From the NCBI RefSeq assembly GCF_913776295.1, contig NZ_CAJYOJ010000078.1:62001-126000 (forward strand): DNA of 64,000 bases. The letters run 5' to 3'. Shown piece after piece: positions 47,752 through 49,809 of this stretch. The stretch comes from an uncultured Pedobacter sp. GTDB lineage: Bacteria; Bacteroidota; Bacteroidia; Sphingobacteriales; Sphingobacteriaceae. Below the pieces are notes generated by a model. The model was given only the letters and a program-made list of their open reading frames with translations. It ran no database searches and was not told the origin of the DNA. Both the position numbers and the translations under genes were made by a program. Each line of letters opens with the position of its first letter. Positions within the stretch are counted from its first letter, which is position 1.

Positions 47752-48816
47752 TTAATCGGTTTCAAGTAAGTTAATGGTGATGTGCACTTCAAAATACTTG
47801 CCTCTGAGATTTGAGGAGAGTGCGGCCTTTTGTGCATAAGTGTAAAGTAATCTCTGCCTGATATTTTCCAGACCTGTATGAAAACCAGTATCGTTGAGGC
47901 CGGTGTTAATCAGGTTACTTGTCTGGATACTAAAGAGGCCTTCCTGCAACGTGACTGTAATTTTTCCAGGATCTTCGGGCTGGCTAAGATTTCCGTGTTT
48001 AATCATGTTTTCGGTTAGGGAAAGTACAAGTAATGGAATTACCCTGGTCGATTCGATTTTCTGATCATAAACAAAGTCTACAAACAAGTCTGGCTGTTTA
48101 GTTCTGCAGAGCTGAAGAAGATTTTCCACCTGGCGGATTTCTGCTTCAAGTGGCATAATTTCCGGGCCATGTTCACATTCCAATGCATAACGCATCAGCT
48201 TAGAAAGATATCGCACCGCTTCTGCAGCACGCGGCTCACTTTTGTGGGTACTGTTATAAATATAGGTTAAGGTATTGAATAAGAAATGTGGATTAATTTG
48301 TGCTTTGAGATAGGCATTTTTGGCATTGGCCAATTCAAGTGTTATCTGTTTCTGCTTCAACATTTCTTCAATTGCTTTTTTTTCCAGCTCGGTTGTTCGG
48401 TTTTTCTGATGGATATAACTTTTGATAAAATAATATGCTGTTGAGAACAACATAAAGTAGATTCCACGCCAAAGTGTTGACGACATAAATTTCCAGTCTG
48501 TTAGCCTATTAATAGGAGCTATAGCAGATTTTGAAAGAAAATGGTCTGTATAGTATGCGATTACAGTATACGACAATATTTCAAGGATTGTTAGGATGAT
48601 TATACTTAGGTAAGCAGGTTTTTGTGCTTTCAAACCTTTTCCCAGTACCCATTCAGCATGGATGTAGAAAAGTGTTATATTAATAATGTAGTGAATACAA
48701 TAGCTTAATATAGTGGCATTTATTTTAAGAATTAAGGAGACCAGTATATATTCATAAAGAATGAAGGTAACCCATGCAATAATATGCCAGCGATAATTTC
48801 TGAGCCAGGTTTTCAT
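47752..48816 (-). CDS. LytS/YehU-type sensor histidine kinase
   Basis: A 354-residue kinase. About four membrane helices fill residues 1-140. A short coiled coil then leads to the His_kinase domain with the phosphoacceptor motif KAQINPHFLFNTLTYIYNST, in which the His precedes FLFN, as in LytS-like kinases. The ATPase N-box-like MIKHGNLS and the final NIRQRLLY segment are present. Such kinases pair with LytTR regulators. The partner is at 49063-49809, with a 54-aa peptide ORF in between on the other strand. There is no large extracellular sensor domain. Confidence 0.9.
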   Translation of the reverse strand: MKTWLRNYRWHIIAWVTFILYEYILVSLILKINATILSYCIHYIINITLFYIHAEWVLGKGLKAQKPAYLSIIILTILEILSYTVIAYYTDHFLSKSAIAPINRLTDWKFMSSTLWRGIYFMLFSTAYYFIKSYIHQKNRTTELEKKAIEEMLKQKQITLELANAKNAYLKAQINPHFLFNTLTYIYNSTHKSEPRAAEAVRYLSKLMRYALECEHGPEIMPLEAEIRQVENLLQLCRTKQPDLFVDFVYDQKIESTRVIPLLVLSLTENMIKHGNLSQPEDPGKITVTLQEGLFSIQTSNLINTGLNDTGFHTGLENIRQRLLYTYAQKAALSSNLRGKYFEVHITINLLETD

Positions 48817-48909
48817 TTTTTCTTTGGTTAAAATTTGGTTTCACAACAGTCAACATTTGCTTTGCGTAATATAGTCTTTTGACGGTTTTGAGGCGGCTAA
48901 TTTTCGCTT

Positions 48910-49074
48910 ATGAAAAAAATAGCAGACCTAAAAACGACCCGGAAAACTGTGTTTGTTTTCCGTTCACAAAAAGCAGCAAATATGCGCTTTCAAAAGAGTG
49001 ATCCGACTACGAGTACAATGACTGTGATCACAACAATGACTACTCATTCAGATATGCAAATGTTAGTCCCTTAA
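48910..49074 (+). CDS. Thr-rich 54-aa peptide inside the LytS/LytTR locus
   Basis: This ORF is too short for the ORF track. The start at 48910 reads MKKIADLKTTRKTVFVFRSQ..., followed by a Thr-rich C-terminal half (SDPTTSTMTVITTMTTH) and a tail. The first half is basic and leader-like; the second is Ser/Thr-rich with a DPTT turn, the look of a small ribosomally made natural-product or signalling peptide. It lies between the kinase and regulator genes, on the opposite strand; its last 12 bp overlap the regulator end. A T-rich stretch with TTTGCTTTG and TTTTG elements lies upstream. No maturation enzymes are nearby. Its role is inferred from composition and location only. Confidence 0.55.
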   Translation: MKKIADLKTTRKTVFVFRSQKAANMRFQKSDPTTSTMTVITTMTTHSDMQMLVP

Positions 49075-49809
49075 ACGTTTTGAGATCAGGGTTTGGTTTT
49101 CAACGTAATCCATAAACGCCTCTTTGTATTGTGGAGTCATGAGCACTTCATACTTGCCAAGGTCGATTTTATGCCCATTGATTTCCTTTACATAGGAGGT
49201 GTTTATCATGTATGATTTGTGAACGCGGTAAAAGTGCTCATTTTCCTGGAGTTTTTCTTCCATTTCCTTGATGGTCATGTACACAGAATAATCATTTGTT
49301 GGGGTGTAAATGTGTACATGGTTGTTTGAGCCCTGTAAGTATATGATATCCTTTTTGAGCACTTTGGTCAATCTGCCGCGTTCACCATTGGTTCGCAAGA
49401 AAAATGCCCCTTCATTTTCGTTTACAATGTGCTGTGCACCATAACACTCCGAAAGCACTTCATTAACAACTACTGCAAAATCTCCCATGTTGAAAGGTTT
49501 TAACAGGTAGTGTTTTGCCCTCACCTTAAAAGCTTCCAATGCAAATTCCGGGTAAGATGTGGTAAAAATAATATCATGTAACTTGTGCTTGAGGTTTTCA
49601 GCGAGCCTCAGGCCAGACATTGCCGGCATATCGATATCTAAAAAAATCAATTGTTTATTACGCTCTGTACTGATTTCACTAAGTGCTTCTATTGGTTTTG
49701 TAAAAACACGGTTAACCTTTAACCTGGGCATTTCTGCAATATGATCTTGCAAAATGTTAATTGCGGTAGGATCATCATCAATAATGATGCATGAGATAGG
49801 ATTTTTCAT
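49063..49809 (-). CDS. LytTR-family response regulator
   Basis: A 248-residue regulator. The receiver domain has CIIIDDDPTAINIL (acidic pair), the phosphoacceptor Asp in FLDIDMPAMSGL, and the conserved Lys in KHYLLKPFN. The C-terminal LytTR domain (about residues 140-240) has DIIYLQGSNNHVHIYT and FYRVHKSYMINTSYVK. It binds DNA direct repeats. The partner is the LytS-type kinase 246 bp away on the same strand. A Thr-rich peptide ORF runs the other way in the gap between them. Confidence 0.92.
   Translation of the reverse strand: MKNPISCIIIDDDPTAINILQDHIAEMPRLKVNRVFTKPIEALSEISTERNKQLIFLDIDMPAMSGLRLAENLKHKLHDIIFTTSYPEFALEAFKVRAKHYLLKPFNMGDFAVVVNEVLSECYGAQHIVNENEGAFFLRTNGERGRLTKVLKKDIIYLQGSNNHVHIYTPTNDYSVYMTIKEMEEKLQENEHFYRVHKSYMINTSYVKEINGHKIDLGKYEVLMTPQYKEAFMDYVENQTLISKRLRD

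Follow-up and report, generated by a model that had tools for sequence, protein, structure and literature searches.

A threonine-rich peptide gene between LytS-type kinase and LytTR regulator genes represents a large, unnamed family of Pedobacter and its relatives and probably encodes a modified signal

Results

The locus

The window analyzed here, a stretch of 64,000 nucleotides that is part of contig C78 of a 5.09 Mb genome, encodes a 54-aa peptide between the genes for a LytS-type histidine kinase and a LytTR response regulator, on the strand opposite to both. The coordinates confirm this arrangement, which was pointed out in an earlier note on this DNA, along with the 12-bp overlap (49063-49074) between the peptide ORF and the regulator gene. 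The features of the locus are the following:

47752-48816, minus strand: LytS-type histidine kinase, with four N-terminal hydrophobic helices and PF06580 (His_kinase); proposed receptor
48839-48869, plus strand: proposed LytTR box, with half-sites at 48840-48848 (degenerate) and 48861-48869 (TTTGCGTAA), 21 bp apart
48877-48905, plus strand: proposed peptide promoter, with a -33-like TTTTG (48877-48881) and the -7 element TAATTTTC (48898-48905)
48910-49074, plus strand: putative peptide precursor gene, 54 aa, with a leader-like half (residues 1 to ~29) and a Thr-rich, Cys-less half (residues ~30 to 54)
49063-49809, minus strand: response regulator with Response_reg and LytTR domains; proposed activator of the peptide promoter

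The 54-aa product of the ORF at 48910-49074 (plus strand) is MKKIADLKTTRKTVFVFRSQKAANMRFQKSDPTTSTMTVITTMTTHSDMQMLVP.

A large unnamed peptide family

The threonine-rich gene has many homologs in Pedobacter and related bacteria, which together form a large family without a name. When 60 relatives were searched at the protein level, homologs were recovered with E-values from 1e-20 to 1e-5, plus weaker ones, and the closest named orthologs of the window peptide are from Pedobacter. A profile search identified members in 97 of the 147 Pedobacter genomes, with up to ten per genome, and in 105 of the 401 genomes of Sphingobacteriaceae, representing 9 of the 25 genera including that of the window; a few of the weakest matches in other genera of Sphingobacteriaceae were judged not credible. 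Short peptides of this kind thus occur in Sphingobacteriaceae, as the earlier note suggested. Neither Pfam nor NCBIfam contains a family that matches any of 36 diverse members or the window peptide. Spread of the family outside Sphingobacteriaceae was considered and rejected: 395 genomes of the class gave only two matches in other families (E ~8e-4), neither of them credible, one lying within an 841-aa open frame and the other in a 116-aa frame.

Comparison of 14 distinct orthologs of the window peptide gives a pooled pN/pS ratio of 0.30; third codon positions are variable at 40 of the 54 codons compared to 22 and 21 for the other two positions, and all gaps are multiples of three. Homologs with a conserved frame and a selection ratio far from one, as anticipated for a genuine gene, are therefore present, and the ORF is a real gene under purifying selection, far beyond chance. 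The location of the ORF, on the strand opposite to the regulator and kinase genes and overlapping the end of the former, might raise the suspicion that it arose by chance or reflects an antisense RNA of this region, but we give such a non-coding origin next to no credence because of the low pN/pS and the exclusively in-frame indels; the codon-periodic variation and the existence of tandem protein-coding copies in some genomes also speak against it.

The family peptides are usually 40 to 60 aa long. The basic leader-like half carries the motif K-L-x-[KR]-[KR]-T-x-F-V-[FY]-[KR]-[SN], which is followed by [ST][DN]P[TS] and then by a Ser/Thr-rich tail. Lys and Arg jointly account for 27.1% of the first 24 residues versus 4.9% of the C-terminal part, and Ser and Thr for 16.5% versus 34.5%, so that the division into a basic and a Thr-rich half, originally described for the window peptide, extends to the family. 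The N-terminal half is more conserved than the C-terminal half (mean distances of 0.60 and 0.73, respectively), and the peptides accordingly display the conserved leader and the Ser/Thr-rich, more variable core expected of a RiPP precursor. The core Cys used for (methyl)lanthionine formation in class I lanthipeptides is lacking: Cys is found in the C-terminal part of 2 of the 107 family peptides and is absent from the window peptide. A Gly-Gly motif, signal peptide or other known export motif is not present in the peptide either.

Conserved association with a kinase and a LytTR regulator

All credible homologs adjoin LytS/LytTR pairs, a linkage that the earlier note had suggested checking, and are encoded head-to-head with a four-helix LytS-type kinase of a single subfamily. 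In almost all of these cassettes, the peptide gene is antisense between the regulator and the kinase genes; the exceptions are L021, L095 and L098, where it diverges from a kinase-regulator operon. The peptide gene is thus linked to a kinase and a LytTR regulator, as in peptide quorum sensing.

The window's genome encodes 22 LytTR domains and four peptide cassettes (on contigs C78, C2, C22 and C87, the last with two peptide copies). The kinases of these cassettes match the window kinase with E<=1e-48, whereas those without a peptide match with E>=1e-27. In a tally of 13 Pedobacter genomes, a peptide is encoded beside 35 of the 49 kinases detected at E<=3.3e-42; eight of the 14 subfamily kinases without a peptide belong to one tandem-array region of one genome, and for the others the gap to the regulator gene is short wherever it is measurable. 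The structure model of the kinase (pLDDT 54) is too poor for fold comparison.

Several variants of this gene neighborhood are worth recording. In the tandem-array region (L205:7860-15463; G006:C1, ~4762860-4770460), seven subfamily kinases in a row precede a single LytTR regulator; an eighth kinase is nearby, and no peptide was found between the seven. Regulator-kinase-regulator triplets that include a subfamily kinase and no peptide are present in L191, L192 and L208 (G009, G001 and G011), with a gap of only ~90 bp to the upstream regulator. In Pedobacter borealis (L124:6151-6881) and P. ginsenosidimutans (L128:6145-6399), the regulator ORF is broken and the peptide and kinase ORFs are intact, which may reflect sequencing error or decay. 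The window regulator has its closest paralog (E 1e-91) in an orphan LytTR regulator without an adjoining kinase (L247:16303-17094, G000:C66; the same gene in L169), located ~7 kb from a split-LanB/LanC/C39-transporter cluster.

A direct repeat upstream of the proposed peptide promoter

The gap between the kinase and peptide genes, including the proposed box, is strongly conserved among the window orthologs. We scanned 47 nonredundant upstream regions for repeated 9-mers with at most one mismatch at lags from 9 to 60. The scan revealed a peak at lag 21, with nine regions, compared to at most two at every other lag; in the shuffled control, the mean at lag 21 was 1.1 and the maximum at any lag was 5. 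In the 29 regions that could be anchored on TAnnTTTC, the half-sites (TT...TAA) are located at approximately -59 to -50 and -38 to -29 from the T of this element. In autoregulating LytTR systems, a pair of 9-bp repeats separated by 12 bp has been reported directly upstream of the promoter (PMC6193735); the same layout is seen here at the level of the family, the first repeat being degenerate in the window. The 21-bp periodicity of the 9-bp repeats and their fixed distance from the TAnnTTTC -7 element lead us to predict autoregulation.

The -7 element of Bacteroidetes promoters spans positions -12 to -5 (see PMC6847099 for the promoter consensus). In the window and its close relatives, the TA of this element is located exactly 12 bp before the ATG, so the peptide mRNA is predicted to be leaderless.

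The window box has no other match in its genome at up to three mismatches. For the sister-type box, a search of five genomes at up to two mismatches gave ten matches, of which six correspond to cassettes; a regulon extending beyond the cassettes was rejected given that the four remaining matches, all with two mismatches, are at about the control level and three of them lie inside other genes. No LytTR box was seen by eye at the LanB promoters discussed below. In the main Pedobacter clade, most LanB promoters (L246, L291-L305) share the block TTAATCTTTGTAATTTTC, in which the TAnnTTTC form of the peptide promoters recurs.

LanB dehydratases at home cassettes

The earlier observation that no modifying enzymes are encoded nearby holds for the window, with no PF04738 (LanB) match on contig C78, but fails for the family. 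Among the 83 cassettes with enough flanking sequence for LanB annotation, 44 have a LanB gene no more than 1.3 kb from the 3' end of the kinase gene; in 42 of the 44, the two genes are on opposite strands, in a tail-to-tail arrangement. LanB is present at each of the 14 cassettes from other genera that have long flanks (L271-L284). The remaining 39 cassettes, including those of the window's type, are satellites without LanB, and a LanB-linked home cassette is also present in all 21 satellite-bearing genomes checked. Tandem copies of the peptide gene (2 to 6) are confined to home loci, the satellites being single in 39 of 39 cases. The window's genome contains PF04738 matches on C22, C66 and C87, and on two of these contigs LanB is within ~6 kb of a peptide cassette. 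In the sister genus g37 and others (L271-L281), the tail-to-tail overlap of the kinase and LanB genes reaches ~124 bp, compared to 4 bp at most Pedobacter home loci. The LanB genes may already be listed in the work of Caetano et al. (2020; cited in PMC10352776) on the lanthipeptides of Pedobacter lusitanus.

We take R784, R786, E823, R826, H961 and R966 to be the catalytic residues of NisB. All of these are matched in the C87 LanB, the one enzyme checked by alignment to NisB (4wd9), which consists of 932 aa and contains both the Lant_dehydr_N and Lant_dehydr_C domains. A search for relatives of two reference LanC cyclases, which accompany LanB in class I lanthipeptide clusters, found none at the window locus or at most home cassettes; LanC-like genes are close to only a few cassettes, such as L245 and L266. 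At L245:369-17593 (G000:C22), a LanB/LanC/C39-transporter/outer-membrane-receptor cluster adjoins a satellite cassette, the peptide of which is Cys-less.

The presence of LanB directly beside the kinase gene at home loci makes a RiPP precursor the most likely identity of the peptide. Given that no LanB is encoded on the window's contig, we infer that the window peptide would be modified in trans.

Covariation of the two peptide halves with the kinase and LanB

To ask which half of the peptide covaries with which partner, we performed partial Mantel tests on 61 nonredundant cassettes in which the catalytic part of the kinase and the two domains of the regulator were controlled for. The C-terminal half covaries with the kinase membrane region (r 0.40, p 0.001) and the N-terminal half does not (r -0.05); the former effect falls to r 0.21 (p 0.003), and to 0.13 when ranks are used (p 0.048), after removal of the largest clade. 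Within the 34 home cassettes, the N-terminal half covaries with LanB (r 0.46, p 0.001) and, less strongly, with the membrane region (r 0.27), whereas the C-terminal half covaries with the membrane region (r 0.38, p 0.001) and not with LanB (r -0.21). This pattern is supportive and not proof because the distances compared are between linked genes. Together with the LytTR-type box at the peptide promoter, it lends support to the suggestion in the earlier note that the peptide is the ligand of the kinase and makes this suggestion plausible.

An alternative is that the dehydrated peptide is mainly an antimicrobial or another effector, the production of which is controlled by the kinase and regulator, with or without sensing of the peptide, in a nisin-like manner. 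LanB is typical of lantibiotic clusters, the L245 satellite adjoins the cluster described above, and the tandem copies at home loci could raise the yield. Nevertheless, we deem this function unlikely: nearly all cassettes lack LanC and a Cys for ring formation, immunity and dedicated transporter genes are not found beside most of them, the 39 satellites are devoid of any biosynthetic gene, and the C-terminal half covaries with the membrane region of the kinase. It is also quite unlikely that the small protein is an intracellular modulator which binds the kinase or the regulator directly and is neither exported nor modified. The lack of an export motif, the lack of LanB at the window cassette and the head-to-head gene pair, as known for small regulators, are compatible with such a role; the leader/core layout, the LanB gene adjoining 44 of the 83 cassettes and the covariation of the leader half with LanB at home loci speak against it.

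Discussion

We propose, with some confidence, that the peptide is a Cys-less RiPP precursor that is dehydrated in trans and that its core is the autoinducer of its own kinase, in a positive feedback loop. Under this model, the LanB of the home cassette on contig C87 would recognize the conserved leader and dehydrate Thr and Ser residues of the core, acting in trans on the window peptide. After its release and export, the modified core would be detected by the neighboring kinase of the four-helix LytS type, and this kinase would phosphorylate the LytTR regulator; the latter is predicted to bind the direct 9-bp repeats in the kinase-peptide gap and to activate the peptide promoter, closing the loop. 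A LanB-modified, Cys-less RiPP signal is the simplest account of the leader, the core, the dehydratase, the membrane-only kinase and the LytTR box. Points that weigh against it are the absence of LanB from C78, the lack of a Gly-Gly motif or signal peptide, the degenerate first half-site in the window, the drop in covariation without the largest clade, the linkage of the genes compared and the 14 of 49 subfamily kinases that have no peptide. The window cassette is a satellite, one of four cassettes in the genome; the satellites appear to share one dehydratase, and each core may be matched to its own kinase. More tentatively, at somewhat less than even chances in our estimate, Bacteroidota might possess a RiPP-pheromone network in which one LanB serves several dispersed, Cys-less peptides with a shared leader and in which the dehydrated core of each peptide is recognized exclusively by the four-helix LytS-type kinase of its own cassette, providing parallel, insulated autoinduction channels in a cell.

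The proposed system can be compared with several known ones. With the nisin/subtilin-type class I lantibiotics (NisA-NisB-NisRK), it shares a leader and a Ser/Thr-rich core, LanB, an adjoining two-component system and the proposed autoinduction; it differs in the lack of core Cys and LanC in nearly all cassettes, in the LytS/LytTR pair that replaces NisK/NisR, in the enzyme that is often encoded elsewhere, and in the position of the peptide gene antisense between the regulator and the kinase. The Agr system (AgrD-AgrB-AgrC-AgrA) similarly includes a peptide gene, a membrane-embedded kinase, a LytTR regulator and direct-repeat activator sites, but here neither an AgrB protease nor a thiolactone residue was seen beside the gene, the precursor is different, LanB is involved and the hosts are Bacteroidota. 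The LytTR Regulatory Systems of Streptococcus (HdrRM, BrsRM) are autoregulated and likewise have 9-bp direct repeats, spaced by 12 bp, directly upstream of the promoter, but include an inhibitor protein in the membrane and lack both a kinase and a peptide gene (PMC6193735). Prochlorosins, with one ProcM and many precursors, resemble the proposed promiscuous use of one enzyme for several precursors; however, the enzyme is of class II, the leaders are of the Nif11 type and no receptor kinase is encoded beside each precursor (PMC10783134). Pinensins and other class I lanthipeptides of Bacteroidetes are also LanB-dependent peptides of Bacteroidota but have leaders with an LxLxKx5L motif, often GG-ended, and Cys-containing cores (PMC7268733). 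The survey of Bacteroidetes lanthipeptides discarded ORFs without a core Cys (PMC7268733), which would explain why the precursors described here have been missed; mining tools that require a core Cys discard this peptide family. In the open-access literature, we found no description of the family, of LytS/LytTR peptide autoinduction in Bacteroidota, or of an experimentally described peptide quorum-sensing system in this phylum.

The peptide family is a testable quorum-sensing candidate in most of the Pedobacter genomes sampled and comes with a predicted signal, modifying enzyme, receptor, regulator and promoter box. The gene probably encodes a chemically modified peptide signal detected by the adjacent kinase, which would constitute an uncharacterized form of communication between bacterial cells. 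If the model is correct, LanB chemistry would be used for signaling without thioether rings, and a single enzyme would serve several receptor-matched precursors in trans.
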